Assembly: GCA_016209495.1 (NCBI GenBank)
Contig: JACQVX010000210.1
Span: 1-33,748 of the forward strand
From: Planctomycetota bacterium
GTDB lineage: Bacteria; Planctomycetota; JACQVX01
Length of the DNA stretch: 33,748 bases
Direction: 5' to 3'
Every line of letters begins with the position of its first letter. Position 1 is the first letter of the stretch. Positions 2,820-32,764 of the stretch are shown here, piece by piece. The notes under the pieces were generated by a model that saw only the letters and a list, made by a program, of their open reading frames with translations, did no database searches and had not been told where the DNA came from. Made by a program: the position numbers and the translations under genes.

Positions 2820-2831
2820 GCCCAGGCGACA

Positions 2832-5219: not shown

Positions 5220-5225
5220 TTCTCC

Positions 5226-5253
5226 TTGGACTGCCGCGCCGCGCCCCTACAAT
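5226..5253 (+). promoter_or_regulatory. Candidate sigma-70-type promoter before paralogue C
   Basis: TTGGAC (5226-5231), a 16-bp spacer and TACAAT (5248-5253, five of six consensus bases) lie in the 78-bp gap before the GTG at 5298. The predicted start near 5260 would give a leader of about 38 nt carrying the ribosome binding site. The 16-bp spacing matches other promoters in the window. The -35 matches only in TTG. Confidence 0.5.
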
Positions 5254-5297
5254 GCCCACCTTCGAGAGTCGGCCGGATTCGGGGCGGGGGAGTTGAC

Positions 5298-8136: not shown

Positions 8137-8173
8137 CGGGCCTGTGCCCTACGCCCGGCCCGGCCGCCGGCGG

Positions 8174-9997
8174 CTAGAAATCGAAGTGGACCCGGACGTG
8201 GTCGTTCGTGGGTCCGCCCGCGCCTACCTGCACGTTCTGCAGGGCCAGGCCCGGGACCAGGCTGAGCTGCACCCGGCTCAGGGACTGGCCCAGGATGGGG
8301 AGGGCGGGAGGCAGGGCCATGCCCACCAGGACCTGCACCCGCCGCTCGTCCACCGCCGCCACGGGCTGGTCCACCACGTCCACGTAGAAGGACGGGTCCA
8401 CGGCCCCGTTGAAGACCAGGGAGCCGTTCAGGACGCCCAGCTCCAGGCCGGCGCGCAGGTGGACCGCCACCGTGAGGACCTTCTCGTAGCCCGACCCCCG
8501 GTCCACCAGGACGTCCATGTGGACCTCGCCCCAGGCCACGCGGATGGGCCGCGGGTCCGCCGGGTCCATGAGGACCACCGGCGGCATGAGGGGGCGCAGG
8601 CGGAAGGCGATGGGGTCCGTGGGGCGGACCAGGGGCGAGAACTCCGGCAGGAAGCGGGTGAGCAGGCTCCCCTCCAGGCGCAGGCCTGTCCCGCCCGTGG
8701 CGCCAGGATTGCCGTTGCCCGCGAAGGTGCTGGCGTCGATGGTCTGGGCCAGGAGCCCCGCGCGCCAGGCGACGTAGAGGGCGCGGTTCACCAGGTCGTC
8801 GTCCAGGGCCAGCTCGGCCCCGGCGGCGGCCTGGAGGACCGGCGGCGCCCCCGCCGTCACGAGCGACCCGGGGCGCGCGGGCAGGGTGGGGTCGATGCCC
8901 CCGTCCACGTCCAGGCTCAGGTCCAGGAGCAGGCCGTCCGCGTCCAGGCGCGGCACCGAGCGCACGGAGCGGAAGCTCAACCGCCGGCCCTGCACCGTCA
9001 GGTCCATGGGCTGGCCCAGCCGCGCGACACCCTCGGCGACGATCCGGGCCAGGTCCTGGGTGAAGATGCGCCGCACGAAATCGGTGACGGCGGTCGAGAG
9101 GGGGGCCTGAAGGATCGACACCAGCCACTGGGGAAGTCCCGAGGCCACCTGGAAGCTCACCCCCTGGATATCCACCACGGGGTTGGTCATCTGGGCCTCG
9201 AGGCGCCCCGCGGCGTTCACCCCCACGGTGAAGGAGGCCGCCAGGTGCACGCGGGAGACCAGGGCCACGCCCCGGGTGTCGGGATAGCGCAGGCCGCCGG
9301 TGGACCGGGCCTCGAAGTCCAGCTCCATGTCCTGGGCCACCGCGTCCACCTCGAGGCGCCCGGCCAGGGGGGTCGCGCGCACCGACGAGCTCCGCGAGCG
9401 GGTGCCCAGGAGGTCCACCACGGTGGTGGTCACCGTGACTCCGGCCACCTGCAGCGGGCCCTGGAAGATGGGGTTCAGGGGCGAGAGGGCCCTCGCCAGC
9501 CCCGGCCCCGCGATCATCGTCTCCAGGCGCCGGGCCAGGGTGTCGAAGCCCCCGCGAGAGACACGCAGCTCCACGGCGCGCTCCACGGGACGGCCCGGGG
9601 CGTCGAAGTCTCCACGGAGGACGCCCACGCTGGTGTCCTGCTCCCCCCCGGGGAGCCCGCGGGTGCGGGCATGGATCACGTTGAGGCCCACCGCCAGCGG
9701 GACCGTCGCGCGCCAGCGCCCCGCCGGGTCCACCGGGACGACCTGCCCCCCCACGTCCACCTCGCGCACCGCGCGATCCAGGACCGTCCCCTCCACCACC
9801 GTCTGGGGGACGCCGAGGTGGGCGCCCCGCTCGGGGACGTCCACGCGCAGGGCCGGCGGCGCCGGCAGGGTGCGGGAGAAGGCCGCCGCCGAGCCCCGGC
9901 GGGGGGCCGCCCCCCACTTGTGATCGAAGCCCTCGGCGCAGCCCAGGACCCCCGCCAGGGCGAACCCCAGGGCCACCACGGCCTGCCCCGCGCGCAC
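8174..9997 (-). CDS. Large lipoprotein with N-terminal Ig-like domain
   Basis: The 607-residue product starts at GTG 9997, one base after the TAG of the porin gene upstream, so the two are likely translationally coupled. A hydrophobic leader ending VLGC (Cys20) marks a lipoprotein. Residues ~45-120 resemble a glucodextranase-B/Big-type Ig domain (VEGTVLDRAVREV ... VPLAVGLNVIHARTR). The remaining ~480 residues are rich in beta pattern with amphipathic stretches such as LARRLETMIAGPGLARAL and APLSTAVTDFVRRIF. They could be a lipid-binding TULIP (BPI-like) fold, which would suit a place beside FadL and a desaturase, but this is a weak impression. I do not recognise a specific family. Location is the inner leaflet of the outer membrane or the periplasm. 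Confidence 0.75.
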   Translation of the reverse strand: MRAGQAVVALGFALAGVLGCAEGFDHKWGAAPRRGSAAAFSRTLPAPPALRVDVPERGAHLGVPQTVVEGTVLDRAVREVDVGGQVVPVDPAGRWRATVPLAVGLNVIHARTRGLPGGEQDTSVGVLRGDFDAPGRPVERAVELRVSRGGFDTLARRLETMIAGPGLARALSPLNPIFQGPLQVAGVTVTTTVVDLLGTRSRSSSVRATPLAGRLEVDAVAQDMELDFEARSTGGLRYPDTRGVALVSRVHLAASFTVGVNAAGRLEAQMTNPVVDIQGVSFQVASGLPQWLVSILQAPLSTAVTDFVRRIFTQDLARIVAEGVARLGQPMDLTVQGRRLSFRSVRSVPRLDADGLLLDLSLDVDGGIDPTLPARPGSLVTAGAPPVLQAAAGAELALDDDLVNRALYVAWRAGLLAQTIDASTFAGNGNPGATGGTGLRLEGSLLTRFLPEFSPLVRPTDPIAFRLRPLMPPVVLMDPADPRPIRVAWGEVHMDVLVDRGSGYEKVLTVAVHLRAGLELGVLNGSLVFNGAVDPSFYVDVVDQPVAAVDERRVQVLVGMALPPALPILGQSLSRVQLSLVPGLALQNVQVGAGGPTNDHVRVHFDF

Positions 9998-9998
9998 G

Positions 9999-11468
9999 CT
10001 AGAACCGCCTCTCGTAGGAGACGAGGATCACGTCCTGCACCAGCTTCTGCCTCGCCCCGTCGGCGTCGGCGCTGGACCGGCTGGTCCCCGTGGAGATGGT
10101 CTCCTGCCAGGCGTGCTCCCATGCCAGGTCCACGACCCAGGCCTCGCGCCGGTAGCCCGCCCCCAGGGTCCCGTGGTGTTGGGCGAACCCAGACCCGCCC
10201 ACCAGGACCGTGTTCGCCGGCACCGGGTTCGTCCCCACGCTGTGGCCGCCGCGCAGGACCAGGCCGCTCGCGGACTCCCACTCGAGCCCCGCGGCCGCCA
10301 CGTACTGGTCGCGCCAGTGGAGCGGGATCCTCGCCGTGAAGTCGGGCCCGCCGTTGATCTCGTTCAGGTCCGGGTTGTCTCCCCCCTCGAGGCGAAAGAC
10401 CGCCTCGCGCATGGCCTGGGACCACTGGATCCACTTGGCCTCTCCCGAGGCGCGGAAGCCCCGGGGCAGGTCGCGGGCGAGGCCCAGGACGGCCTGGCGC
10501 GGGATGCGGAAGCCCTCCACCTCGAAGTCGTAGCGGGCCCGGCCGTCGACCCCCCCCGCGGGCAGGAAGGTGGAGAGGACGACGCTCTGCGCGGCCTGGA
10601 GGTCCCTCTGCAGGTTGGCGAAGCCCTCGGTGGCGTCCACCCGCGCCTCCCCTCGCACCGGGCCCACCAGGCCCAGGTCGCGGTAGGAGAGCCCGACCCG
10701 CGTGGCCCGGTCCGGCCGCCAGGCCAGGCCCAGGAGGGCGGTGCCCCCGTGGCCCCAGCCCTGGGCGTCCACCTTGAGCGCGGGGCCGCCGGGGCCACCC
10801 CCGGAGGCCAGGCTGAACAGCTCGGCGAAGGTGAGGGTCTCGCCGTTGATCCGGAGCGGCGTCCCGGAGGGCTGGATCCGGACGATCCCGCCGGGTCGCT
10901 GGGCCCTGGGGTCCCCGGCCCCGGCGCCGGAGCTGCCGGTCGCGACCCCACCGTCGGCCTCCACCTCGGCCCGGGTCGCCAGGTAGCGGAGGCCCAGCCC
11001 CAGGCTCAGCCTCTCCGAGACCCGGTAGGCGAACGAGGGGCCCAGGGAGGCGATGAGCAGCCCGCCCCCCGCGGCGCCCGGGTAGGCCCCGAAGCCCCAG
11101 CGCCAGCGATCCCCGTGGCCGTAGACGCTCTCGGGTTCGAAGACGGTGGCGAAGGTGGGGATGGGGTTCCAGCGCCCCGGTCCCCCGCGGCCGTAGCCGG
11201 CCCGCGGGGTCTGGTAGTAGGTCACGTCACGGCGCAGGCCCACGGCCACCTCGGTGGAGCCGGGCCCCATCCACCCGAGGAGGGCCGGGTTGGCCTCCTG
11301 GGCCGTGGCTCCGTCCCCCAGGGCCGCGTCGATGCCCCCGCGACCCCCCGCGCGGGCGTTGATGGCCACGGCCTGGGACCCGTTGGAGGCGGGGGAGGGG
11401 CGAACCGCCAGGGCCACGGTCAGCCCCAGGGCAGAGGCCCCGACCAGGGCGAGTCGCGCGAGGGCCAC
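9999..11468 (-). CDS. FadL/OmpP1/TodX-family outer membrane transport protein
   Basis: This 489-residue protein starts at GTG 11468. A signal peptide (~1-28) is followed by the FadL-type N terminus: SQAVAINARAGGRGG, then ALGDGATAQEANPALLG. The protein ends in YERRF with a C-terminal Phe, as expected for a BAM-inserted beta barrel. Repeated amphipathic strands (RVGLSYRDLG, RYDFEVEGFRIPRQAVLGLAR, GTLGAGYRREAWVVDLAWEHAW) fill the C-terminal half. FadL proteins carry long-chain fatty acids or other hydrophobic molecules across the outer membrane. The desaturase just upstream and the lipoprotein just downstream suggest lipid handling. The substrate cannot be told from sequence. A palindrome about 70-87 bp before the start may be an operator. 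Confidence 0.85.
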   Translation of the reverse strand: MALARLALVGASALGLTVALAVRPSPASNGSQAVAINARAGGRGGIDAALGDGATAQEANPALLGWMGPGSTEVAVGLRRDVTYYQTPRAGYGRGGPGRWNPIPTFATVFEPESVYGHGDRWRWGFGAYPGAAGGGLLIASLGPSFAYRVSERLSLGLGLRYLATRAEVEADGGVATGSSGAGAGDPRAQRPGGIVRIQPSGTPLRINGETLTFAELFSLASGGGPGGPALKVDAQGWGHGGTALLGLAWRPDRATRVGLSYRDLGLVGPVRGEARVDATEGFANLQRDLQAAQSVVLSTFLPAGGVDGRARYDFEVEGFRIPRQAVLGLARDLPRGFRASGEAKWIQWSQAMREAVFRLEGGDNPDLNEINGGPDFTARIPLHWRDQYVAAAGLEWESASGLVLRGGHSVGTNPVPANTVLVGGSGFAQHHGTLGAGYRREAWVVDLAWEHAWQETISTGTSRSSADADGARQKLVQDVILVSYERRF

Positions 11469-11537
11469 GCGGACGGCGGGTCGGCTGGGGACGATGGCGC
11501 ACTCTCCTCCCGGGGCTACCGAGCAAAGGCGCCACCA

Positions 11538-11565
11538 GGTTCACATTCGTGAACCAAAAAGTCAA
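11538..11565 (-). promoter_or_regulatory. Palindromic operator candidate overlapping a -35 region before the FadL-like gene
   Basis: GGTTCAC (11538-11544), a 4-base centre and GTGAACC (11549-11555) form a perfect 7+7 palindrome in the one AT-richer patch of this gap. Reading the - strand, TTGACT (11565-11560) lies immediately before it and would act as -35; 16 bp later comes TGAACC (three of six -10 matches), inside the palindrome. A repressor bound here would block such a promoter. The arm structure resembles a TetR-type operator, but no regulator of that kind is in the window. Confidence 0.45.
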
Positions 11566-11635
11566 GCCTATATCCGGGAAGGACATGGCGCGCCCGGGGG
11601 GAGCCCCCCCGGTACCTACGCAAGTCCCTGGGGTG

Positions 11636-12505
11636 TCAGGGATCTTGATACTGTAGAGACCGCGAGGCGGCGACGGTCGCCAGGGGTCGGAATCCGGGGC
11701 GAGCCGGGACGGTCACCCTGAGGCCCCGCGCCAGGCCCACCAGGGCCAGGGCCCGGATGAACCACCACCCGGGGTCGGGCTGGACCCAGTGCTCCCCCGC
11801 GTTGGCCGCGGAGGCATGGCGGTGGTGGTTGTTGTGCCAGGCCTCCCCCATGGTGGCCAGGGAAAGCCACCACACGTTGCGGGAGAGGTCCGGCGTGGCG
11901 TAGGTCCGGCTGCCTACCGTGTGGCAGACGGAATTGACGCACTGCGTCATGTGGAAGCAGAGGACGAGCGGGACGTAGATGCACCAGAGGGTGCCGCCCG
12001 GTCCCAGGGCAGCGAGGGCCGCCCCCAGGAGGAGGAGGTGCGGGAGGGCCTCATGGCGCTGCACCCAGGCCAGCCCGGGGTTGGCAGCCAGGTCCCGGGT
12101 GCCGACCAGGTAGTCGGCCTCCCGGTCCGACTTCGTCAGGATCCAGCCCAGGTGGGCCCAGAAGAACGAGTCCCGGGCCGAGTGGGTGTCCCGGGGCGTG
12201 TCCGCGTAGCGGTGGTGCAGCCGGTGACGCCCCGCCCACACCAGGGGCCCGCCCATGAGGGCCATGGCGTTCCCCCAGGCGAAGAGCGCCTCCAGCCATC
12301 TCGGCGAGCGGAAGGCCCCATGGGTCAGCCCCCGATGCAATCCGATGACGGCGCAGCCGCATGCCACGTAGAGCGGGATCATGACCCCCAGGTAGGCGGG
12401 CCGGAAGGGGAAGGCCAGCGCGCCGGCGGCGGCCAGGTGCAGGAGCGCCAGGAGCCCTGTGTTCGTCCAGTCGATGCGCGGCCGAGGACGTCCAGCCTGG
12501 ACCAT
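11636..12505 (-). CDS. Membrane fatty acid desaturase (acyl-CoA/acyl-lipid delta-9 type)
   Basis: This 289-residue diiron membrane enzyme introduces a double bond into fatty acyl chains. All three histidine boxes are present: HRGLTH (57-62), HRLHH (94-98) and HNNHH (224-228, in the characteristic EAWHNNHH context). The family motif around NSVCHTVGSRTY then SRN is also seen. Hydrophobic pairs (~17-58, ~76-90, ~157-190) fit four membrane spans. ATG 12505 is preceded by GGAGG at ~10 nt. It lies 92 bp after the response regulator and 167 bp before the FadL-like gene on the same strand, consistent with membrane-lipid remodelling under two-component or separate control. Positional specificity (delta-9) is an inference from family likeness. 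Confidence 0.9.
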   Translation of the reverse strand: MVQAGRPRPRIDWTNTGLLALLHLAAAGALAFPFRPAYLGVMIPLYVACGCAVIGLHRGLTHGAFRSPRWLEALFAWGNAMALMGGPLVWAGRHRLHHRYADTPRDTHSARDSFFWAHLGWILTKSDREADYLVGTRDLAANPGLAWVQRHEALPHLLLLGAALAALGPGGTLWCIYVPLVLCFHMTQCVNSVCHTVGSRTYATPDLSRNVWWLSLATMGEAWHNNHHRHASAANAGEHWVQPDPGWWFIRALALVGLARGLRVTVPARPGFRPLATVAASRSLQYQDP

Positions 12506-12540
12506 GGATGGTGACCCTCCAGGTCATCATCCTAGTGGGC

Positions 12541-12582
12541 GGCCCGGGTGCGGGCCCGTCAAAGGAAGGTCACACGTGTAAC
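12541..12582 (-). promoter_or_regulatory. Intergenic hairpin and imperfect palindrome between response regulator and desaturase genes
   Basis: GGCCCG/CGGGCC (12541-12546 and 12551-12556) make a 6-bp stem with a 4-nt loop, and GTCACAC/GTGTAAC (12569-12582) forms a 14-bp palindrome with one mismatch. The palindrome sits 64-77 bp before the desaturase ATG, a reasonable operator position. No convincing -35/-10 pair is seen: TAGGAT occurs at 12534-12529 on the - strand, but the nearest TTTGAC is too far away. The hairpin lacks a T-tract. Confidence 0.3.
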
Positions 12583-12597
12583 ATCTTGACCGGACCG

Positions 12598-13308
12598 CTA
12601 CTGACGGACGAAGCGGTAACCCACCCCCCGGACGCTCTGGAAATATCGAGGTCTCGCCGGGTCCTCCTCGAAGTAGCGCCGGAGGCGGACGAGGAAGTTG
12701 TCCACGGTGCGGGTGACCAGGGCCCCGGTGACCCCCCAGGCCTCCCGGAGCAGCGTGGCCCGGCTCACCGCCTCTCCCTCCCGGGCCGCCAGGGCCCGGA
12801 GGATGGCCACCTCCCGGGTGGTGAGGGTCAGCTCGCGCCCGTCCGCCTTCCGCCCCCGGGCGGCCTGCAGGTCCACCTGCCAGTCCCCGATGCGGAGCAT
12901 CTCCTCCGCCCCCGCGGCCTGCCCCTCCAGCGCCGCCCGGTGCCACACCTGGCGCCGCAGGGCCACCCGCACGCGGGCCAGGAGCTCGTCCAGGTCGAAG
13001 GGCTTGGTGAGGTAGTCGTCCGCCCCCGACTCCAGCCCCTGGACCACGTCCTGGGGCAGGTCCCGGGCGGTGAGGAGGATCACCGGGGTGTAGATGCCCG
13101 AGAGCCGGGCCTCCCGCAGGACCTGGAAGCCGTCCTTCCCGGGGAGCATGACGTCCAGGATCACCAGGTCGTAGCGCTCCGAGCCCAGGCGCTCCAGGGC
13201 CCCGTCGCCGGTCCCCTGGGCATCCACGTCGTAGCCCGCGTTCCGCAGGTTATAGGCGAGGGCGCCGGCCAGGTGCTCCTCGTCCTCGACCAGGAGGACC
13301 CGCGACAT
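12598..13308 (-). CDS. OmpR-family response regulator
   Basis: The 236-residue product from ATG 13308 has a receiver (1-~120) with acidic pocket E8-D9-E10, acceptor D52 (ILDVMLPGKDG), T80 and K102 (TKPFD). The C-terminal winged helix (~140-236) ends in TVDNFLVRLRRYFEEDPARP and VRGVGYRF, typical of OmpR/PhoB DNA-binding domains. Its start lies one base after the kinase stop codon, so the pair is co-translated. It is the cognate partner of the kinase. The targets are unknown, but the desaturase gene immediately downstream is a plausible one. Confidence 0.92.
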   Translation of the reverse strand: MSRVLLVEDEEHLAGALAYNLRNAGYDVDAQGTGDGALERLGSERYDLVILDVMLPGKDGFQVLREARLSGIYTPVILLTARDLPQDVVQGLESGADDYLTKPFDLDELLARVRVALRRQVWHRAALEGQAAGAEEMLRIGDWQVDLQAARGRKADGRELTLTTREVAILRALAAREGEAVSRATLLREAWGVTGALVTRTVDNFLVRLRRYFEEDPARPRYFQSVRGVGYRFVRQ

Positions 13309-15874: not shown

Positions 15875-15945
15875 CGAGAGAGAGGCCTCCTGGGTGACAG
15901 CGGCTCGACCCTCCCGGTATCGTGGAGGGCCCTGGGGAGAGGTGC

Positions 15946-16536
15946 ATGGCCCTCGTCTCGCTGGTCCGGCACGGCAAGTCGGCCCGTGGATTCCACGAGG
16001 CGGTGGATCCGGACCTCTCCGGTCGGGGCCACGGACAGGCGCGAGAGACGGCCGCACGCCTGTGCGCGGCCCTCACCCGGCGGCCCGTGGAGTCCTCTCC
16101 CCTGCGGCGCGCCCGCCAGTCCGCCGCGCCCCTGGCCGAGGTCTGGCACGTCCCCGTGGAGGTCGCACAGGCCCTCACCGAGGTCCCCGTCCCCGCGGAC
16201 ATGGGCGAGGGGCGGCTCCACCTCCGCCGCGCCTGGCTGGACGACCTCCTCGCCCGGAAGTACGGGGGCCTGGATGCCGCCATCGAAAAGTGGAGGGAGG
16301 ACCTGATCGCGCACATCCTCTCCCTACGGACGGACACCGTGCTCTATACCCACTTCCTCAACATCAACGCGGTGGTGGGCCACGCCCTCGGCGACACCCG
16401 GGTGGAGGTGTTCAGGCCGGACCATGGTTCCGAGACCCGGGTCCGGGTGGAGGCCGGTCGCATCGTCCTGGAACCGGGTTCGCCGTGCCCTGGCGGCCCG
16501 CCCCCTCCGCTCGCCTCCTCGCCAGGCCCGGGGTAG
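15946..16536 (+). CDS. Histidine phosphatase superfamily protein (SixA/phosphoglycerate-mutase fold)
   Basis: The 196-residue product from ATG 15946 is chosen because GGAGAGG lies 4-5 nt upstream and the fold begins at once with VSLVRHGKSA (RHG at 8-10, His9 the phospho-acceptor). A second catalytic region is SPLRRARQSAAPLAEV and a late His lies in THFLNINAVVGHALG. Members remove phosphate from phosphohistidine, sugar phosphates or nucleotides. It is the first gene of the five-gene operon, 22 bp before the kinase. It might recycle a phosphorylated intermediate or act on the phosphohistidine of the PEP-synthase-like enzyme, but that is conjecture. The last ~15 residues are Pro-rich and not conserved-looking. 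Confidence 0.85.
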   Translation: MALVSLVRHGKSARGFHEAVDPDLSGRGHGQARETAARLCAALTRRPVESSPLRRARQSAAPLAEVWHVPVEVAQALTEVPVPADMGEGRLHLRRAWLDDLLARKYGGLDAAIEKWREDLIAHILSLRTDTVLYTHFLNINAVVGHALGDTRVEVFRPDHGSETRVRVEAGRIVLEPGSPCPGGPPPPLASSPGPG

Positions 16537-16558
16537 ACTCGCGCGGGCGGAGGTCATC

Positions 16559-17125
16559 TTGGGGCAGGTCAGTCCGGGGCGAGTCTTCTGGATCACCGGC
16601 CTCTCCGGCGCGGGCAAGAGCAGCTTCGCCCTGGCCCTCGCGGAGAGGCTGCGCGCGCGCACATCGGCCGTGGTCCTCGTGGACGGGGACGAGTTCCGGG
16701 AGGTCATGGGCGCCGACCTGGGCTACAGCCCCACGGACCGGCTGGAGAACGCCCGGCGGATCTGCCGCGCCTGCCGCTGCCTCTCGGCCCAGGGCCTGAC
16801 GGTGGTCTGCGCCACCATGTCCCTGTTCCGGGAGTGCCACCGGTGGAACCGCCTCCACCTCGAGCGCTACACGGAGGTCTACATCGAGGCCTCGCCCGCG
16901 ACCCTGCGCGGGCGGGACCGGAAGGGGCTGGTCTCCTCGGCCCTGGAGGGCAGGCGGGACGACGTGGTCGGGCTGGGCCAGGGATTCGACGAGCCAGAGG
17001 AGCCGCACCACCGCATCCCCAACGACGGAGGCCTGGAGGAACTGCGGGGGCAGGCCCGCGCCCTCGCGGACCTCTATCCCGAGGGGGCGGGAATGGGCGG
17101 GCGACCGGAGCTCGGGGGCGAGTGA
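16559..17125 (+). CDS. APS-kinase-family (CysC-like) kinase; candidate cytidine diphosphoramidate kinase
   Basis: I choose the TTG at 16559, which has GGAGG 5 nt upstream and gives 188 residues starting just before the P-loop; a longer frame back to 16424 would overlap the phosphatase gene. Motifs are Walker A GLSGAGKSS (14-22), DGDEFRE, then LGYSPTDRLENARRICR, the signature of adenylylsulfate kinases, and a late DEPEEPHHRI. APS kinase phosphorylates the 3'-hydroxyl of adenylylsulfate. No sulfate-activation partner (ATP sulfurylase, PAPS reductase) is nearby. The neighbours instead match the Campylobacter phosphoramidate pathway, where the CysC homologue Cj1415 phosphorylates cytidine diphosphoramidate. 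The family call is firm and the substrate is inferred. Confidence 0.85.
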   Translation: MGQVSPGRVFWITGLSGAGKSSFALALAERLRARTSAVVLVDGDEFREVMGADLGYSPTDRLENARRICRACRCLSAQGLTVVCATMSLFRECHRWNRLHLERYTEVYIEASPATLRGRDRKGLVSSALEGRRDDVVGLGQGFDEPEEPHHRIPNDGGLEELRGQARALADLYPEGAGMGGRPELGGE

Positions 17126-17907
17126 TGGACCACGGGGACTACACCCGGCTGGCGGCCCACTATCACCACCGGGCGGGATACTCGCACCCGGTACTGGGCC
17201 TCATCCTCCGGCACATGGGGGCCTGGCCACCCCCGGTGGGTTTCCTCGCCGCCGACGTGGGGGCGGGGACGGGGAAGCTCACCCTGGACCTCCTGGACCT
17301 GGGCCTCGAGGTGGTGTGCGTGGAGCCCAACACGGCCATGCGCGCCGAGGGGGGACGAGCCACCGCGGGCCTGCGGGCGCGCTGGCAGGCGGGGAGCGGC
17401 GAGGCGACGGGGCTCGATACCACGTCGGCCGACTGGGTCCTCATGGGGTCCTCCTTCCACTGGACCGACCCCTCTCGCTCCCTCCCCGAGTTCCACCGCG
17501 TCCTCCGGCCCGGCGGGCACTTCACCGCCATCTGGAACCCCCGGGAGGTGGAGCGGAGCCCCTTCCACCTGCGCGTGGAGGAGCGCATCCGCTCCATCGT
17601 CCCCGAGCTCTCGCGGGTCTCCTCGGGCGGCGCGAGCTACACCCAGGGGCTGTTCGACACCCTGGTCTCCACGGGCCACTTCGCCGAGGTCGTCCTCCTG
17701 GAGGCCCGCCACGAGGTCGCCATGTCCAGGGAGAGATACCTGGGCTGTTGGCTCTCGGTGAACGACATCCAGGTGCAGGCCGGGCCCGAGCGCTGGCCGC
17801 GAGTCCTCGACGCCATCCGGGAGGAAGCGGCCGGCATGGACACCATCGTCACCCCCTACCGATCCCGCGCCTACACGGCCCGGAGGGTGGATGGCCACGG
17901 CGACTGA
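17125..17907 (+). CDS. Class I SAM-dependent methyltransferase
   Basis: The 260-residue product starts at ATG 17125 sharing one base with the kinase stop (TGATG). Motif I is ADVGAGTGKLTLDLL (~42-56), followed by VVCVEPN (acidic end of strand 2), the motif region DWVLMGSSFHWTD, and VLRPGGHFTAIWNP, as in Methyltransf_11/25 enzymes. A GTG at 17122 is an alternative start. It overlaps the next gene by 17 bp. In the C. jejuni phosphoramidate locus, putative methyltransferases (Cj1419, Cj1420) sit beside the kinase and are thought to supply the O-methyl group, so an equivalent role is plausible. The substrate cannot be read from the sequence. Confidence 0.88.
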   Translation: MDHGDYTRLAAHYHHRAGYSHPVLGLILRHMGAWPPPVGFLAADVGAGTGKLTLDLLDLGLEVVCVEPNTAMRAEGGRATAGLRARWQAGSGEATGLDTTSADWVLMGSSFHWTDPSRSLPEFHRVLRPGGHFTAIWNPREVERSPFHLRVEERIRSIVPELSRVSSGGASYTQGLFDTLVSTGHFAEVVLLEARHEVAMSRERYLGCWLSVNDIQVQAGPERWPRVLDAIREEAAGMDTIVTPYRSRAYTARRVDGHGD

Positions 17908-20272
17908 CGGGCACGTCCTCGCCTTCGGTTCCAAGGCGGAGACCCTCGAGCGCCTGGCACCGCGCCTGCGCGGGGGCCATGTCCCGCCCCTGGCCTGGTT
18001 CACCGTGGGGGCCTGGAGGGCCGACCGCGGGGCGGTCCTCGCCCACCTCCGGGAGGCCCTGGGGGCCGCGGTCCTCCTGGTCCGGAGCTCCGCCCTGTTC
18101 GAAGACGGCGAGCGCGCCTCCCACGCGGGGGAGTTCCTCACAGTGTCCGGGGTCCCTGGCGGCGAGCGCGAGGCGGTCGCCTCGGCGGTGGATCGGGTCA
18201 TCGCCTCCTACGGGAGGGACTCGGCGGCGGACCAGGTGCTCGTCCAGCACCAGGTGGAGCGGGTGCGCCTGGCGGGGGTCCTCTTCACCCGGGACCCGGA
18301 GACCCTTGCGCCCTACCGCATCTTCAACTACGACGACCGCGCGGAAGCCGCCACCGATGCGGTCACCGCGGGCCGGCGGGGCGGCCTCAGGACCTACGTC
18401 CGCCTCCGGGGCGCCGGGGGGCCCTACCCCTCGGAGGGGCTGCGCCGGGTCTACGCGGCGGTGGAGGAGCTGGAAGGCCTCTTCCCCCACGACCGCCTCG
18501 ACGTGGAGCTGGCCGTGGACGCGGCGGGGGAGGTGCAGGTCTTCCAGGTGCGACCCATCGTCACGGCGGCCCCGACCCCGCCGGGCGTGGAGGTCATGGC
18601 CGACTGGCTCGACAAGGCGCGGCGCAAGCTCGCCAAGAGAATGGGACCCCACCCGCACCTCCGCGGCACCCGGTCGGTCTTCGGGGTGATGCCCGACTGG
18701 AACCCCGCGGAGATCGTGGGCCTGCGCCCCAGGGCCCTGGCCCTCTCGCTCTACCGGGAGCTGGTCACCGACGCCATCTGGGCCTACCAGCGCCACGGCT
18801 ACGGATACCGGGACCTCCGCTCCTTCCCCCTCCTCGTCTCCTTCCTGGGGGTGCCCTTCATCGACGTGCGGGTCTGCTTCAACTCCTTCGTCCCCGCCGG
18901 CGTGCGGGACGGGCTGGCGGACCGGCTCGTGAACCACTACGTGGACGCGCTGGTGCGCTCCCCACACCTCCACGACAAGGTGGAGTTCGAGATCGTCCAC
19001 TCCTGCTACTACCCCGGGATCCGCGGCCGGCTGGCGCACCTGGAGGGCGAGGGCTTCACCGGGACCGAGCTGGGCGAACTCCTGGCGGAGCTGCGGGTCC
19101 TCACCCACCGGGTGATACACCCCCGCACCGGGCTCTACCGCGCGGACCTGGACCGGGTCCAGCGGCTGGACGCGCGGCGGCGCGCCGTCCTCGGGTCGCA
19201 GCTCTCGCCGGTGGACGCGTTCTACTGGCTCATCGAGGACTGCAAGCGCTACGGGACGCTTCCCTTCAGCGGCCTGGCCCGGGCCGCCTTCATCGCCACC
19301 CAGTTCCTGGACTCCTTCGTCCGCGAGGGTGTCCTGGAGCCGGGCGACCGGGAGTCCTTCATGCGCTCCCTGAACACGGTGACCCAGCGGATGACGGCGG
19401 ACCTCGCCCGGCTGGGTGGGGGCGCGCTCCCTCGGGACGAGTTCCTCGAGGCCTACGGCCACCTCCGCCCGGGGACCTACGACCTCCTCTCCCCGCGCTA
19501 CGACGAGGCGCCGGACCACTACCTGGGACGCGACCTCCCCTCCGAGGTCCCGCCGCCGCCTCCCCCGTTCGTCCTCCCGCCGTCCCGGGGGCGGGCCATG
19601 GCCTCGCTCCTCTCGTCCGAGGGCATCGAGGCCGAGCCGGGGGCCCTCCTGGAGTTCTGCCGCGAGGCCATCGAGGGGCGGGAGCAGGCCAAGCTGGTCT
19701 TCACGCGCAGCCTCAGCGACGCCCTCGTGCAGGTGGAGGCCCTCGGGCGACGCGTGGGGCTGGACCGGGAGGCCATGTCCCACGTCGACGCGCGCACCCT
19801 CCTCGGGCTCTACGCCTCGCTGGACGCCCTGGACCTCCGGGAGTTCCTGGAGCGGGCCATCGAGGCGAACCGCCAGGCCTACGCCGTCACGCGGGCGGTG
19901 CGCCTCCCCCACCTCATCCTCGACCCCTCGGACGTCCTGGCCTTCCACCTCTCCGAGGGAGAGCCCAACTTCGTGGGCTCCTCCCGGGTGTGCGCCGAGG
20001 TGGTGCGCGAGGCCGAGTTCCGGGGCCGTTCCCTGGAGGGCCGCATCTGCCTCATCGCGTCCGCGGACCCTGGCTACGACTGGATCTTCTCGCGGCGGAT
20101 CGCCGGCCTGGTGACCCAGTTCGGCGGGGCCAACTCCCACATGGCCGTCCGCGCGGCCGAGCAGGGCATCCCCGCCGTCATCGGTTGCGGGGAGCCCAAC
20201 TTCCTGCGGTGGGGCGCCGCGCGCGTCCTGGACCTGGATTGCGCGTGCCGGCGGGTGACCGTCCTCCGGTGA
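17891..20272 (+). CDS. PEP-synthase-like phosphotransferase; candidate L-glutamine kinase (Cj1418-like)
   Basis: The 793-residue product starts at ATG 17891 with GGAGG 5 nt upstream. The N-terminal ~220 residues are an ATP-grasp of the PPDK/PEP synthase type: LLVRSSALFEDGERASHAGEF near 62-82 and a nucleotide-binding end at VELAVDAAGEVQVFQVRP. The middle ~450 residues are unlike PEP synthase, with no PEP/pyruvate TIM barrel visible. The C terminus is the swivelling phosphohistidine domain, GGANSHMAVRAAEQG with His750, where canonical enzymes have TCH or TSH. This three-part layout at ~790 residues is that of Cj1418, which uses ATP to phosphorylate the amide nitrogen of glutamine, yielding AMP and phosphate. 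It is flanked by the other matching enzymes. A rifampin-phosphotransferase-type activity is the main alternative. Confidence 0.82.
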   Translation: MATATDGHVLAFGSKAETLERLAPRLRGGHVPPLAWFTVGAWRADRGAVLAHLREALGAAVLLVRSSALFEDGERASHAGEFLTVSGVPGGEREAVASAVDRVIASYGRDSAADQVLVQHQVERVRLAGVLFTRDPETLAPYRIFNYDDRAEAATDAVTAGRRGGLRTYVRLRGAGGPYPSEGLRRVYAAVEELEGLFPHDRLDVELAVDAAGEVQVFQVRPIVTAAPTPPGVEVMADWLDKARRKLAKRMGPHPHLRGTRSVFGVMPDWNPAEIVGLRPRALALSLYRELVTDAIWAYQRHGYGYRDLRSFPLLVSFLGVPFIDVRVCFNSFVPAGVRDGLADRLVNHYVDALVRSPHLHDKVEFEIVHSCYYPGIRGRLAHLEGEGFTGTELGELLAELRVLTHRVIHPRTGLYRADLDRVQRLDARRRAVLGSQLSPVDAFYWLIEDCKRYGTLPFSGLARAAFIATQFLDSFVREGVLEPGDRESFMRSLNTVTQRMTADLARLGGGALPRDEFLEAYGHLRPGTYDLLSPRYDEAPDHYLGRDLPSEVPPPPPPFVLPPSRGRAMASLLSSEGIEAEPGALLEFCREAIEGREQAKLVFTRSLSDALVQVEALGRRVGLDREAMSHVDARTLLGLYASLDALDLREFLERAIEANRQAYAVTRAVRLPHLILDPSDVLAFHLSEGEPNFVGSSRVCAEVVREAEFRGRSLEGRICLIASADPGYDWIFSRRIAGLVTQFGGANSHMAVRAAEQGIPAVIGCGEPNFLRWGAARVLDLDCACRRVTVLR

Positions 20273-21027
20273 GCCGGCCCGCGCCGGGGCCTGGGCCCAG
20301 GGCCATCCTCCTGGCCGCCGGGCGAGGGACGCGGCTCGGTCCCCTTACCGACGCGCGGCCCAAGTGCCTCGTGGACCTCTGGGGCCGCTCGCTCCTGGAC
20401 CGCGCCCTGGACTCCCTCGGCGCGGGGGGCATCCGCGAGGTGGCCCTGGTGACGGGCTGGCGCGCCGAGGACCTGGCGGGCCGCGGGCTCCCCACGCGGC
20501 ACAACCCGGACTACGAGCGTACGAACATGCTCCATTCCCTGTTCTGCGCCTCCGACCTCATGGGCGAGGACGTGGTCGTGGTCTACGGCGACATCGCCTT
20601 CCACCCGCGGCTGGTGCGGGCCCTCCTCGCGGAGGCCGCCCCCTTCGCGGTCGTGGTGGACGTGGAGTGGCGCCGACTCTGGGCCCTGCGCATGGAGGAC
20701 CCGCTGGCCGACGCGGAGACCCTGCGGCTGGACGCCGAGCTCCGCATCCTCGAGCTGGGCCGCCGGCCGCGCTCCTACGGCGAGGTCCAGGGGCAGTACA
20801 TCGGCCTCTTCCGCCTGCGCGGCGAGGCCCTGGAGGCCGCCCGTGGGCTCCACCGCAGGCTCCCCGAGGAGCGGACCCGCACGATGTTCATGACGGACTT
20901 CATCCAGGCCGCCATCGACGAGGGCCAGCGGGTGCAGGCGGTGCCGGTGCACGGCGGTTGGGTGGAGGTGGATCGCCCAGAGGACCTCTCCGCCTACGAA
21001 CACGCCGGCCCGGGGCTGCTGAGATAG
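20269..21027 (+). CDS. LicC-like nucleotidyltransferase; candidate CTP:phosphoglutamine cytidylyltransferase
   Basis: The GTG at 20269 overlaps the previous stop (GTGA) and gives 252 residues. The N terminus AILLAAGRGTRLGPLTDARPK (Arg11-Lys32 region) is the nucleotide-binding signature of the sugar/choline-phosphate nucleotidyltransferase family. YERTNMLHSLFCA and VVVYGDIAFHP (~106, acidic metal ligand) resemble LicC-type cytidylyltransferases, and HGGWVEVDRPEDL closes the active site as in family members. In C. jejuni the equivalent step is Cj1416, which couples CTP to L-glutamine phosphate. This is the last gene of the operon and is followed by a strong hairpin. A generic NDP-sugar or CDP-alcohol pyrophosphorylase is the alternative. 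Confidence 0.85.
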   Translation: MSRPAPGPGPRAILLAAGRGTRLGPLTDARPKCLVDLWGRSLLDRALDSLGAGGIREVALVTGWRAEDLAGRGLPTRHNPDYERTNMLHSLFCASDLMGEDVVVVYGDIAFHPRLVRALLAEAAPFAVVVDVEWRRLWALRMEDPLADAETLRLDAELRILELGRRPRSYGEVQGQYIGLFRLRGEALEAARGLHRRLPEERTRTMFMTDFIQAAIDEGQRVQAVPVHGGWVEVDRPEDLSAYEHAGPGLLR

Positions 21028-21636: not shown

Positions 21637-21713
<77 letters not shown>

Positions 21714-22618: not shown

Positions 22619-22670
22619 GTAGGAATCGAACTCTCGCGTTCAGGCGGCGATGCGCCCGGGGACGGGACCC

Positions 22671-24563
22671 ATGTGCGGGATCTGCGGGACCTTCAACCTC
22701 GGGGACGGAACTCCTCCGGTGGATCGCGCGCAGGTCGAGGCCATGCGCGACGCCCTGACCCACCGGGGGCCGGACTCGGCGGGGCTCCACCTGGAGGGCT
22801 TCGCCTCCCTGGGGGTCCGCCGCCTCCGCGTCATCGATCTGGTCACGGGCGACCAGCCGATCTACAACGAGGACCGGACCGTGGCGGTGGTCCTGAACGG
22901 CGAGGTCTACGGCTACCAGGACCTCCGGGCACGCCTGGAGGCCCAGGGCCACCGCTTCCGCACGCGGTCCGACACGGAGGTCCTAGCCCACCTCTACGAG
23001 GAACACGGCGAGGCCATGCTCGACCAGGTGGACGGCATGTTCGCCTTCGCCCTCCTGGACATCCCGCGCCGCCGGCTCCTCCTGGCCCGCGACCCCATGG
23101 GGATCAAGCCGCTCTACACGGCCGTCTTCGCCGGCCGGCTGCACTTCGCCAGCGAGCTCACGGCCTTGCGCTCGGCGGGCCTCCCCGCGGAGCTGGACCC
23201 GGTGGGCGTGGCGGACTACCTGGCCCTGAACTACGTCCCGGGCCCCGGCACCATCTACACCCTCGGGCGGAAACTGGAGCCGGGGGTCGCCCTCGTGGTG
23301 GACCCGGAAGGGATCCGTCCGCTCCGCTACTGGTCGCCGAAGGCCCCCGCGGTGGGATCGGCGCCCCCCTTCCGGGAGGCGGTGCGGGAGCTGCGCCACC
23401 TCCTGGGACAGGCGGTGGCGAGGCAGCTCGTGGCCGATGTCCCCGTGGGGGTCTTCCTGAGCGGGGGCCTGGATTCCGGGAGCCTCCTGGCGGCGGCCAG
23501 GGTCCTGACGAACGCGACGCAAGGGATCCATACCTTCTCGGCGGGCTTCCGGGAGGCGAGTTACAGCGAGCTGGACGGGGCCCGCTCCGTGGCCCGACGC
23601 GCCGGGGGAGAGCACCACGAGCTGGTCCTCGGACCCCCGCCGAGCGACGATCTCCCCCGCATCCTGGGCCGCTTCGACGAGCCCTTCGGGGATACCTCCG
23701 CGGTGCCGCTCTACTACCTGGCGAGGCTGGCCCGGCGCCACGTCACGGTGGTCCTGTCCGGGGACGGCGGCGACGAGGTCCTGGGCGGCTACTCGACCTA
23801 CCCCGCGTGGAGGCTCGCCCAGTTCTACCGCCGCCTCCCGGCCTTCCTCTCCCGGGACCTTATCCCCGCGCTGGCCCGCCGGCTCCCGGTCTCCGAGCGG
23901 AAGCCCTCCATAGACTGGCGGGCAAAGCGCTTCGTGCGCGGGGCCCTCGAAGACCCGGCGGTGGCTCTCTACCGCTGGAAGGAGATCCTGGACGCCGAGG
24001 GGCGCGCCGCCGTCCTGGGACGCGCCCCCGGGACGCCGGACCCGCTCCGCCACTACCTCCTGCGGTACGGCGCGGCCGGCGGCGACCCCTTGCGCCGGCT
24101 CATGGCGGTGGACGCGGGCCTGTATCTGCCGGACGACATCCTCACCAAGGTGGATCGGATGACCATGGCCCACTCCCTGGAGGCGCGGGTTCCCCTCCTG
24201 GACCTCCGCCTGGTGGAGTTCCTGGGGCGGCTCCCCACGGGCTACCTGGTCCGGGGCCTGGGCACCAAGCGCCTCCTGCGCGAGGCCGCCCTGGGGGTCC
24301 TTCCGCGCGCGGTGCGGCTCGGGAGGAAGCGGGGCTTCAACGTCCCCATCGCGCGCTGGCTGCGCGAGGAGCTGCGCCCCCTGGCGCGGGACTGCCTGGG
24401 GTCGCGGCGGCTGCGCGAATCCGGTCTCCTGGAGCCGGAGGCGGTCGGCCGTCTCCTCGACGCGCACGAGAGGCGCGAGGCCGACCACAGCCGCGCCATC
24501 TGGGGGCTCCTGGCCCTGGCGCTCTGGCTGGAACAGGGCGGTCGCGCGAGGGGGGTGGCATGA
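22671..24563 (+). CDS. asnB: Asparagine synthetase (glutamine-hydrolysing)
   Basis: The start is ATG 22671, since this exposes the catalytic Cys2 (MCGICG) after Met removal; an upstream GTG frame would bury it. The 630-residue enzyme has a class II glutaminase domain (2-~200: HRGPDSAG, NGEVYGY, RSDTEV) and an ATP-pyrophosphatase synthetase domain with SGGLDS (264-269), a GDGGDE loop and KVDRMTMAHSLEARVP. It makes asparagine, or amidates another carboxylate, from glutamine and ATP. Length and motifs match AsnB. Members of this family often sit in polysaccharide or natural-product loci, so amidation of another substrate is possible. It overlaps the next gene by ATGA. Confidence 0.92.
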   Translation: MCGICGTFNLGDGTPPVDRAQVEAMRDALTHRGPDSAGLHLEGFASLGVRRLRVIDLVTGDQPIYNEDRTVAVVLNGEVYGYQDLRARLEAQGHRFRTRSDTEVLAHLYEEHGEAMLDQVDGMFAFALLDIPRRRLLLARDPMGIKPLYTAVFAGRLHFASELTALRSAGLPAELDPVGVADYLALNYVPGPGTIYTLGRKLEPGVALVVDPEGIRPLRYWSPKAPAVGSAPPFREAVRELRHLLGQAVARQLVADVPVGVFLSGGLDSGSLLAAARVLTNATQGIHTFSAGFREASYSELDGARSVARRAGGEHHELVLGPPPSDDLPRILGRFDEPFGDTSAVPLYYLARLARRHVTVVLSGDGGDEVLGGYSTYPAWRLAQFYRRLPAFLSRDLIPALARRLPVSERKPSIDWRAKRFVRGALEDPAVALYRWKEILDAEGRAAVLGRAPGTPDPLRHYLLRYGAAGGDPLRRLMAVDAGLYLPDDILTKVDRMTMAHSLEARVPLLDLRLVEFLGRLPTGYLVRGLGTKRLLREAALGVLPRAVRLGRKRGFNVPIARWLREELRPLARDCLGSRRLRESGLLEPEAVGRLLDAHERREADHSRAIWGLLALALWLEQGGRARGVA

Positions 24564-25222
24564 CGCGGCGGCCCGCGGGCCTCCTCCTGGCCTGCGCGGC
24601 GTTCTGCGCGGCGGGCTGCGCCGCCCCCCCGGTCCCGGAGCTGGACTCCTTCCCGGGCGTGGCCGAGCTGGGGGCCCGCCGCGCCCCGCGCTCCCCGCGG
24701 CGAGTCGCCGTGGAGTGCCGCGAGGACCCGGCCCTGGAGGAGGAGGTGGCCTCGGCCCTCCGGCGCTATCCGGTCTTCGCCAGGGTGGTCCCGGCCGCGG
24801 AGGCGGACACGATCCTCAGGCTCCGATTGGAGGACCAGGGTGTCCGCTTCCTCGGGACCAACGACCGATGGGGCTGGAACGTGGCCCTCTGGCTCTACGC
24901 CTGGTTCCCCTCCTGGTGGGTCCGCGACGAGGACTACGAGGTGGACCAGCGCTGGGCGCTGACCCTGTCCTCGGCCGCCTCCGGAGAGACGCTGCTCCGG
25001 ATGGAGTACGACAGGTCGAGGGCCAGGCGGCCCCTGGACGACTTCGAGCGGGGCTGGATCCTGTGGGGGATCTGGCGGGTCCCCGGGGCCCTCGGACAGG
25101 CCAACTGGCGCCGGGTGCGCCGCTCCCTCGCCCCATACCTGCGCCGGGCCGTGGCCGCGGACGTCCTCGGCCTCCTGGCGGGGCACCCGGACGGCCGTTG
25201 GACCGAGGAGACCGACCCGTGA
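24560..25222 (+). CDS. Small hypothetical lipoprotein
   Basis: The 220-residue product begins at ATG 24560, overlapping the asnB stop. A lipobox CAAGC (Cys20) gives a lipoprotein. The middle has an aromatic stretch WGWNVALWLYAWFPSWW (~112-128), either a membrane-embedded or interface segment. Before it, residues ~50-90 resemble the alternation of a small periplasmic alpha/beta domain (EEEVASALRRYPVFARVV ... DTILRLRLED). No family is recognised. It is translationally coupled on both sides, so it probably acts with its neighbours at the envelope. Confidence 0.8.
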   Translation: MTRRPAGLLLACAAFCAAGCAAPPVPELDSFPGVAELGARRAPRSPRRVAVECREDPALEEEVASALRRYPVFARVVPAAEADTILRLRLEDQGVRFLGTNDRWGWNVALWLYAWFPSWWVRDEDYEVDQRWALTLSSAASGETLLRMEYDRSRARRPLDDFERGWILWGIWRVPGALGQANWRRVRRSLAPYLRRAVAADVLGLLAGHPDGRWTEETDP

Positions 25223-28200
25223 GGTCCCTCTGGGCGCGGCCGGGCCTCGCGGCCCTGGCCCTGTCCGCCGCGGGCTGCGGCATCGGGCTGGTCGGCACCG
25301 TGGCGGGGGTGGACGCGGCCACCGGGGTCATCGGCGTGGTGGGAGACGACGACCCGCACCGGCGGGGCGGACCCCTGAGGGTGGCCACGGGCTCACTGCC
25401 GGTGGGGGAACTGGGGACCGCCTACTCGGCGGGCCTGGTGGCGGCCGGCGGCTCGCCGCCGGCCCGCTGGACGCTGGTCGGCGGGGCCCTACCGCCGGGG
25501 CTGGCGCTGGACGGCGCCACCGGGGTGATCGCGGGGACGCCCGCGGCCACCGGTGCCTACGCCCTCGCGGTGGAGGTGGAGGACTCCCAGGGCCAGCGCG
25601 CGGGGCGGGCCCTCTCGCTCCCGGTGGTCCCCCCCCTGGCGGTGGCCACGGGGGCCCTGCCCCGGGCCGTCCGGGGGGTGGCCTACGAGGCGACCCTCGT
25701 CCCGGCCGGGGGCCTCGCGCCCTACCGGTGGACCCTGGCCGCGGGTTCGTTCCCGGCGGGCCTGGGGCCCCTGGCCGAGGACGGACGCATCGCCGGGACG
25801 CCCTCGGCGGCGGGGGCCGGCAGCGTGCAGGTGCGTGTGACCGACGCGCGGGGCAAGGCCGCCTCGGGGACCTTCACCCTCGAGGTGAAGGAGCGGCTGG
25901 CCATCGGGACGGCGGCCCTGCAGGACGCCGTGGAGGGCGCCCCCTACAGCCAGGTCCTCGCCGCCGTGGACGCCCTGCAGCCCCTGCGCTGGTCCCTGGC
26001 GGCCGGCCCCACGGGGGTCGTGGACTTCCCCGGCGGGCTCACCCTGAACGGGGCCAGCGGCGCCATCTCCGGGACCCCCGCCGCGGGCTCCGTCGGGACC
26101 TACACCTTCACTGTCCGGGCGGAGGATGGGGCCGCCGACCGGGACGAGCGTCCCTTCGCCCTCGCCGTGCGTGCCCCGCTCGCCGTGTCGACCTCGGCGC
26201 TCCCGGACGCGGTCAACGGCCGGCCCTATGCCGCGACCCTCACCGCCACGGGCGGCGTCCCGCCCCTGGCCTGGACGCTGGCCACGGGGACGCTACCGGC
26301 GGGGATCTCGCTGCTCCCCACGGGTCAGATCACCGGGACCCCCTCGGCCTCGGCCGGCGACCATGCCCTCGGCCTGCGCGTCACCGACAGCTACGCCGGG
26401 GAGGCGCTCGCCCCCCGGACCGCCACCCGGGCGCTCGGCCTCGCGCTCCTGGACCCGGTGCGCATCCTCACGGCCTCGCTGCCGGAGGCGGAGGTGGGCC
26501 TCGCCTACTCCCGCCCCCTGGCGGCCTCAGGGGGGAGGCCACCCCTCGCCTTCAGCCTGGCGTCCGGGTCGCTCCCCAGCGGGCTCGTCCTGGACGGGAA
26601 CGGGACCCTCTCGGGGACGCCGGACCGCACGGGGGTCTTCGCCTTCACCGCGACCGCCACCGACGCCTCGGCCCCGCCCCTGGCGGCCTCGGCGGCCCTT
26701 CAGGTGGAGACGCTCCCCCGGGTCGCCCTCGCCACCACCTCGCTTCCGAACGGGGCCCGAGGCGTGGCCTACCTGGCCACCCTGGCCGCCACCGGGGGAC
26801 GTGCCCCCCATGCCTGGTCCCTGACCGGCGGGACGACCCTGCCCGCGGGCCTCGCCCTGGACGCCGCGGGGGGCACCATCTCCGGGACCCCGACCGCCGC
26901 GGCCTCCGTGACGGTGGACCTGGCCGTCACGGACTCCCTCGGGGCCCAGGCCCAGCGGGCCGGACTGGGTCTGGCCGTCAAGGCGGACCTGGCCGTGGCC
27001 ACGACGGCCCTGACCGCGGGACGCCGTGGGGAGGCCTACGCCGCCACCCTCGCCGCCTCGGGGGGGACCGCCCCCTTCGCCTGGTCCGTGGCCGGCGGGG
27101 GACTGCCGCCGGGGCTGGCCCTGGGGTCGGGCGGCTCCGTCACCGGGACCCCGACGACCACCGGCGACTTCTCCGTGACGGTGAGGGTCGAGGACTCCCA
27201 GAGCCCGGTCCTCTCCGACAGCCAGGCCCTGGTGCTCCGGGTGGTGGACCCCCTGGAGGTGCTCACCACGGCCCTGGCGGACGCGGAGGTGGGCGTGGCC
27301 CATGCCCAGCCCACCTCGGCCCGGGGCGGCGTGACGCCCCTGACCTGGACCGTGTCGGCCGGGGCCCTCCCGGCGGGGCTGCAGCTCGACGTGTCCTCGG
27401 GCCAGGTCTACGGGACGCCGACGGCGGCCCTCGTCGCGGGGTTCACCCTCCGGGCGACGGACGCGGAGGGGCGCGTGGCGAGCCAGGCCGTCTCGCTCCG
27501 GGTCCACGAGGCCCTGGCCGTCGCCACCTCGGCCCTGCCCGGGGGCGAGGGCGGGAGCCCCTACTCCTCCACCCTGGCGGCGAGCGGGGGTCTGGCGCCC
27601 TACACCTGGGCCCTCGCCTCGGGGGCCCTGCCGGCCGGGGTCACCCTCGGCGGCGGCGGCACCATCTCCGGCGTGCCCGCGGCGGCCGGGGCCTTCGCCC
27701 CAGGGTTCCGGGTCACGGACGCCCTGCCGATCGCGGCCAACGCCGCGGCGGGGAGCGCGACGCGCCAGCTCGCGCTCCAGGTCCGCCCCCCCATCGCCAC
27801 GGGGAGGGACGCGGACCTGGTAGTGGGCCAGAGGGACGTGGGCGGCGGCGAGGTCCTCGCCCGCGGCCTGCTGGAGCCGCGGGGGGTCTCCTACGACGCC
27901 GCGGGGCAGCGCCTCTACGTGGCGGACACGGAGCACCACCGGGTCGTGATCTACACCGGCTACGACGCCGCCAGCCCCCCGGCGGACCCGGCCCCCACGG
28001 CGGTCATCGGCCAGGCCGACCTCGTCTCGGGCCTCCCGGATCGCGGGGGGACCTCACCCACCGCCTCGACCCTGGACTCGCCCTCGGCGGTGCAGGTGGA
28101 GCCGGCCGCCGATCGGCTCCTGGTGGCGGACACGGGCAACCACCGGGTCCTGGTCTACTCGGGGCTCGCCGCCCAGGTGAACGCCTTCCTGGCCTCCGGG

Positions 28201-32669: not shown

Positions 32670-32707
32670 CGACATCTCCTGAGGAGTCGGGCGGGAAACG
32701 GGGCGCA

Positions 32708-32735
32708 ATTCTAGCGGGCGGGGTGGGGCAGTCAA
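32708..32735 (-). promoter_or_regulatory. Sigma-70-type promoter of the kelch lipoprotein gene
   Basis: TTGACT (32735-32730), 16-bp spacer and TAGAAT (32713-32708) on the - strand predict a leader of ~32 nt ending in the AGGAG site before ATG 32669. Confidence 0.75.
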
Positions 32736-32747
32736 AGCTCGTCGCCA

Positions 32748-32753
32748 TAGAAT
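32748..32753 (+). promoter_or_regulatory. -10 element candidate very close to the start of the Cys-containing protein
   Basis: TAGAAT ends 11 bp before ATG 32765, so the transcript would begin about 5 nt before, or at, the start codon. The gene also lacks a Shine-Dalgarno. The -35 at 17-bp spacing (GGGGCA) is weak. Confidence 0.4.
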
Positions 32754-32764
32754 GGTCCCCAACC

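Follow-up and report, generated by a model that had tools for sequence, protein, structure and literature searches.

P-N bonds are seldom met in nature, and the route worked out in detail, by way of a glutamine kinase, is that of Campylobacter. In Campylobacter jejuni, the O-methyl phosphoramidate (MeOPN) group of the capsule is made by Cj1415 to Cj1418, together with the methyltransferases Cj1419/1420 and the transferases Cj1421/1422. Glutamine is phosphorylated by Cj1418 and coupled to cytidine triphosphate (CTP) by Cj1416, glutamate is removed by Cj1417, and the remaining cytidine diphosphate (CDP)-amidate is phosphorylated by Cj1415. These steps are described in PMC6429109, PMC11202532 and PMC10971088, the latter two of which also supply the function names of the four enzymes, such as gamma-glutamyl-CDP-amidate hydrolase for Cj1417. 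A review of 2019 states that the modification has been identified only in Campylobacter (PMC6429109), and a paper on the capsule of Legionella longbeachae mentions methyl phosphoramidate just through citing Campylobacter work. A paper of 2025 infers a putative MeOPN cluster in archaeal Borg elements (PMC12660748). Here we compare with these systems four overlapping genes at positions 16559-21027 of a contig of 33,748 nucleotides (JACQVX010000210.1, in the following called the window) from an uncultured bacterium of the phylum Planctomycetota (GCA_016209495.1). They probably form an operon for an activated phosphoramidate donor, made in the same way as for the Campylobacter capsule. The assembly, in which the window is numbered C184, measures 4.08 Mb, is 86% complete and is the sole genome of its order in the collection searched.

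The original prediction had described four gene types at this place, and coordinates and Pfam matches confirm them, all on the plus strand. The first gene (16559-17125) starts with TTG, preceded at a distance of five bases by a ribosome-binding site GGAGG read from the sequence (16549-16553), and encodes a CysC-type P-loop kinase (PF01583, 3e-30), predicted to be a CDP-phosphoramidate 3'-kinase like Cj1415. It overlaps by 1-4 nt with the gene of a class I S-adenosylmethionine methyltransferase (17122 or 17125 to 17907; PF08241, Methyltransf_11, 2e-15). After a further overlap of 17 nt follows, with an ATG start, the gene of an ATP-grasp/phosphohistidine enzyme of 793 residues (17891-20272), here called GlnK, which is predicted to be an L-glutamine kinase of the Cj1418 functional type. 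The last gene (20269-21027) encodes a LicC-like nucleotidyltransferase (NTPT; PF12804, NTP_transf_3, 1e-17; LicC structure 1jyk, 4e-8), a predicted CTP:phosphoglutamine cytidylyltransferase like Cj1416. The gene order is therefore CysC-methyltransferase-GlnK-NTPT, and the kinase and ATP-grasp frames carry a high-GC coding signal with a GC fraction above 0.9 at the third codon position.

GlnK matches NF004508 (PRK05849), an NCBIfam equivalog model titled 'hypothetical protein', with 890.6 bits over residues 6-792 (curated cut-off 501), whereas the models for phosphoenolpyruvate (PEP) synthase give at most 46 bits at cut-offs of several hundred bits, and the family model for rifampin phosphotransferase (RPH) gives 32 bits at a cut-off of 999. 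Clustering with one of these two families had been named as evidence that would speak against a glutamine kinase; on these scores GlnK belongs to neither, and both identities were rejected. Pfam detects PPDK_N and PEP-utilizers domains in the protein but no PEP barrel domain. In an AlphaFold model (pLDDT 91.8, pTM 0.90), for which plasmid rows were left out of the input, the centre from about residue 230 to 680 is mainly helical in the place where a barrel would lie. The lack of a barrel, which the original prediction had pointed out, is thus borne out both by Pfam, a further reason to reject PEP synthase, and by the model. The best fold matches in the PDB are Listeria rifampin phosphotransferases. 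The candidate phosphohistidine, H750 in the motif GGANSHM, is invariant across the 40-48 relatives aligned. The genome has a single member of NF004508, and none of its further PEP-synthase-like genes exceeds about 26 bits.

Homologues were gathered by the GlnK sequence alone, without use of their neighbours. They occur in 14 plasmid records, in 7 of the 392 genomes that were sampled within the phylum (the window's own included) and in at least 565 pattern-and-tblastn-positive stretches of GTDB species genomes, the best 80 of which were taken for analysis. No Campylobacter is among these best 80 of at least 565, and a scan of the virus collection gave no GlnK relatives. Since sequences close to the Vibrio query that served for confirmation are over-represented in the sample, the frequencies of loci (numbered L in the following) describe the sample only. 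Among 93 non-redundant loci, a stand-alone hydrolase of the C26 type is present in 85, in 78 cases within 500 bp, a stand-alone NTPT in 88 and a CysC-type kinase in 31. This linkage with hydrolase and NTPT supports the pathway proposed below. Every hydrolase located within 3 kb of GlnK lies on the same strand. For the two hydrolases scanned, from Azospirillum and Agrobacterium, the best match is NF045546, 'gamma-glutamyl-CDP-amidate hydrolase', with about 1e-30, under the cut-off of the model. Fused genes are also frequent: NTPT and GlnK form single open frames in 54 loci (for example L058, L061 and L064), usually with a second, stand-alone NTPT downstream, and CysC and GlnK do so in 7 loci (L081, L086, L088, L091, L098, L102 and L036), with linkers of 3-11 residues. 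Such frames suggest a link between the steps.

The methyltransferase follows the kinase. Members of its hidden Markov model (HMM) family are found in 25 of 31 loci with CysC versus 1 of 62 without (p=6e-16), and the lone exception, L094, is truncated where GlnK begins. We infer that the product of 17122 O-methylates the phosphoramidate. Further frequent clusters of neighbours, beyond the core families and the methyltransferase, resemble antisense frames of the core genes. The NTPT of the window groups among the stand-alone NTPTs of GlnK loci, nearest to that of L033 (support 95), in a tree with low internal support elsewhere.

Family membership, the predicted GlnK fold, gene linkage, the fusion frames and the absence of a hydrolase gene are direct results, and the following chemical steps are inferred from them. 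GlnK would phosphorylate its own H750 with ATP and form N-phosphoglutamine, which the 20269 protein would couple with CTP to gamma-glutamyl-CDP-amidate. Removal of glutamate, a step for which most relatives have a dedicated C26-type hydrolase, would give CDP-NH2. As this lineage encodes no dedicated hydrolase, the step may be carried out in trans, for example by a PuuD-like hydrolase encoded on contig C117, or may be skipped. The 16559 kinase would then phosphorylate the 3'-OH of the CDP-amidate, resulting in a donor similar to 3'-phosphoadenylyl sulfate (PAPS). Finally, a transferase encoded elsewhere would pass the phosphoramidate to an acceptor, followed by methylation by the 17122 protein. 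The most likely products are N-phosphoglutamine, a phosphoramidate activated with CDP, and the form of the latter that is phosphorylated at the 3' position and serves as donor.

Several points weigh against this pathway. A Cj1417-type hydrolase was not found with a 15-sequence profile in the operon or in the 86%-complete genome. Pfam and neighbourhood reading recognised no phosphoramidate transferase and no glycan or capsule genes in the 33.7-kb window, and nothing within it ties the operon to a capsule. The sequence link to the Cj proteins is indirect, through the NF045546 match of the relatives' hydrolases, and these are distant from the characterised enzyme, as they reach 107 bits against a curated cut-off of 250. 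Substrate specificity, for glutamine or another amide and for CTP or another nucleoside triphosphate, cannot be read from sequence.

The missing hydrolase deserves the closest look. In most relatives its gene is located between GlnK and NTPT, where the window has no room for a gene because the two overlap by 4 nt (20269-20272). The profile was run on the genome of the window, on its nearest relative G036 (95% complete), on the unrelated genome of L107 (Obscuribacterales, Melainabacterium) and on the control genome of L104, where it gave a match of 242 bits. The best matches in the window genome have at most 39 bits and belong to GuaA, CarA-sized and PuuD-like proteins. No Cj1417-type hydrolase was found by this profile in G036, with weak matches alone to other glutamine amidotransferases and PuuD-like proteins, nor in the L107 genome, again with weak matches alone. 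CysC, methyltransferase, GlnK and NTPT stay together in all three genomes. In the GlnK tree, the window and G036 are sisters (99) which adjoin a hydrolase-bearing member from Omnitrophota, while L107 is placed elsewhere. On the simplest reading, the hydrolase would have been lost at least twice, and because the clade of the window and G036 has a hydrolase-bearing sister, the loss appears to have been tolerated. An AsnB-type asparagine synthase gene at 22650-24563, downstream of a tRNA-Met gene (21637-21713, minus strand), was considered as the missing hydrolase and rejected: it encodes a class II amidotransferase and lies beyond the tRNA, and the nearest relative has nothing comparable close to GlnK.

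These data allow a different ending of the pathway, in which glutamate is never removed and gamma-glutamyl-CDP-amidate itself is 3'-phosphorylated, transferred and methylated, giving an N-glutamyl phosphoramidate. The absence of the hydrolase from three genomes that retain the four other genes, one pair of them with a hydrolase-bearing sister, speaks for such a route. On the other side, PuuD-like gamma-glutamyl hydrolase paralogues are present in all three genomes and could remove glutamate; the paralogue on C117 of the window genome reaches 102 bits with NF008471 (cut-off 266). Either this paralogue could replace the hydrolase or the glutamyl group could be retained. We know of no chemistry for a donor of the N-glutamyl phosphoramidate type, and we regard retention of glutamate as a tentative alternative with perhaps one chance among several. 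A more specific version seems a little more doubtful still: the glutamyl group would stay in place, a sulfotransferase-fold enzyme would transfer from the PAPS-like donor, methylation would follow, and two or more losses of the hydrolase would have given rise to this variant within a phosphoramidate metabolism that extends over bacteria and archaea. To our knowledge, N-glutamyl phosphoramidate is not known from nature.

Less probable, and in our view unlikely, is an operon whose product is a small molecule or lipid and which activates an amide or amino-acid phosphoramidate other than that of glutamine. The GlnK family is indeed very diverse (30-57% identity), and some members stand beside CDP-alcohol phosphatidyltransferase genes or are solitary (L019, L021 and L116). 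However, most relatives have a neighbour that resembles gamma-glutamyl hydrolases, which points to a gamma-glutamyl substrate throughout the family.

The kinase could also be an ordinary APS (adenylyl sulfate) kinase that supplies PAPS in a sulfation operon, the other genes of which serve a sulfated glycan. Its top Pfam domain is APS_kinase, and sulfotransferase-fold genes, detected by HMM search, are frequent near GlnK in loci with CysC (13 of 32) but rare in those without (1 of 63). Against this, the kinase scores 158 bits with NF004041 (cut-off 127) and 108 bits with the apsK equivalog TIGR00455, under its cut-off of 138.7. The same holds for all six linked kinases scanned (window, L015, L022, L033, L085 and L107), which are above the former and under the latter cut-off. 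The genome's own APS kinase shows the opposite pattern, with 197 bits for TIGR00455. In a tree with E. coli CysC, the Sat-CysC of the window genome and other genomic APS kinases, the 31 GlnK-linked kinases including that of the window form one clade (ultrafast bootstrap 97, SH-like approximate likelihood ratio test 96), whereas a second CysC of L082, distant from GlnK and serving as control, groups with the APS kinases. The linked kinases are marked by an invariant N in WN(R) and by a (C)AT(I/M)S(M/L)F-like stretch replacing the APS-kinase motif; APS kinases have neither. Grouping with true APS kinases, the second outcome named as contrary to the original prediction, is thus not seen, and this identity was rejected on score and tree. 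The pattern is that expected of CDP-amidate kinases such as Cj1415. It had further been claimed that no sulfate-assimilation genes are present to explain CysC. Within the 33.7-kb window this stands, as neither an ATP sulfurylase nor a sulfotransferase gene was found there, but elsewhere in the genome, on contig C116, there is a canonical Sat-CysC fusion. On all these grounds, we consider a sulfation operon very unlikely. An antibiotic- or metabolite-modifying operon, with GlnK as an RPH-like phosphotransferase acting on a small molecule and the other three genes as unrelated tailoring functions, is the least probable of all, for although RPH is the nearest solved fold and the nearest PDB profile match, the model scores speak against it, and so does the conservation across phyla of linkage to, and fusion with, NTPT, hydrolase and CysC-type kinase.

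For a phosphoramidate donor made by the Campylobacter-type route, the enrichment of sulfotransferase-fold genes together with CysC fits a transferase that reads a 3'-phosphonucleotide donor, which makes these genes candidate phosphoramidate transferases. Examples are located at 12986-13876 in L033, 7372-8604 in L107 and 13010-14104 in L015. The only recognised sulfotransferase of the window genome is not a strong candidate, because it adjoins the Sat-CysC gene. CDP-alcohol phosphatidyltransferases occur in two loci without CysC, a trend that is not significant.

Very many other bacteria and some archaea have related gene sets. The survey suggests that a set of glutamine kinase, cytidylyltransferase and usually hydrolase is present in hundreds of sequenced prokaryotes, in one form fused to NTPT and in another with CysC and methyltransferase. 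A phosphoramidate operon outside Campylobacter was predicted rightly in kind, as to families and linkage, but the window set is not the complete Campylobacter set: three of the four core genes stand together, and a Cj1417-type hydrolase is absent from the window and the assembled genome. The claim that such a P-N pathway would be new or little described needs a similar qualification, since the set is widespread and a putative Borg cluster has been published, although the set is barely described. The operon of the window appears to be a member of this set whose distinctive point is the absent hydrolase. For future work, the set offers testable enzymes: glutamine kinases from non-pathogens for structural studies, CysC-GlnK fusions and a CysC-type kinase that can be separated from APS kinases by sequence. 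The branch without hydrolase poses directly the question whether glutamate removal is obligatory. In addition, our results suggest that many annotations as 'adenylyl-sulfate kinase' and 'PEP-utilizing enzyme' are misleading.

Some further observations concern the surrounding genes and single loci. Upstream of the kinase, at a distance of 22 nt, lies a gene of the histidine phosphatase superfamily (15922-16536, plus strand; PF00300, 1e-13) which may open the operon and be co-transcribed with it. A search with an HMM of the copies in the window and in Azospirillum retrieved those two alone, and as the gene is kept in just one Azospirillum locus among the related loci, it was rejected as a core gene. 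Elsewhere in the window, a receiver-only gene (68-529) is followed by three consecutive proteins of similar build with HDOD and response-regulator domains (564-7634), and a large protein in which He_PIG Ig-like domains recur alongside NHL repeats (24715-30189) is faced by a kelch-repeat protein on the opposite strand (30198-33071). In L020 (Agrobacterium vitis plasmid, 7926-13015) and L104 (9896-15396), GlnK, hydrolase and NTPT without CysC are located beside CDP-alcohol phosphatidyltransferase genes, and LysE or cytidylate kinase genes; these loci perhaps serve a small-molecule or lipid phosphoramidate. The solitary homologues L019 (Cupriavidus taiwanensis, about 7.5 kb from nifK) and L021 (Microvirga lotononidis) lie on large plasmids at about 7970-10310 with neither hydrolase nor NTPT, and the GlnK of L116 also stands alone. 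The cluster on contig L076, labelled Bifidobacterium breve, is nearly identical to that of Solirubrobacterales metagenome-assembled genomes and is probably from a mislabelled or contaminated bin.

Compared with the MeOPN locus of C. jejuni, the window has predicted counterparts of the glutamine kinase, the cytidylyltransferase and the CDP-amidate kinase in addition to a methyltransferase, and most relatives have the hydrolase too. It differs by its gene order and in lacking a Cj1417-type hydrolase, a recognised transferase and nearby capsule genes. The Borg cluster (PMC12660748) was likewise predicted from structure and is located outside Campylobacter. RPH-Lm (PDB 5fbs/5hv1) shares with GlnK the ATP-grasp part, the helical substrate domain in the middle and the swivelling phosphohistidine part without a barrel, and H750 aligns with the histidine of its GGLMTH motif, but the two have about 14% identity over the model alignment and another genomic setting. 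With the APS kinase CysC, the window kinase has in common the P-loop fold and the core motifs GLSGAGKS and DGD, and differs by the signature and clade of the GlnK-linked kinases. A further group for comparison is that of the five-gene clusters, for which no functional description was found in the open-licence literature. They keep the hydrolase, and in several of them CysC is fused to GlnK. Azospirillum plasmids (NC_016588.1, NZ_CP039644.1) carry such clusters, and so do Acidobacteriota, Nitrospinota, Lachnospiraceae and others; the gene families agree with those of the window, and the genes are often neighbours that share one strand. On plasmid AZO_p6 of Azospirillum lipoferum 4B the genes are arranged as CysC-methyltransferase-GlnK-hydrolase-NTPT, which is the order of the window with the hydrolase added, and the GlnK proteins of the window and A. 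lipoferum are 49% identical.

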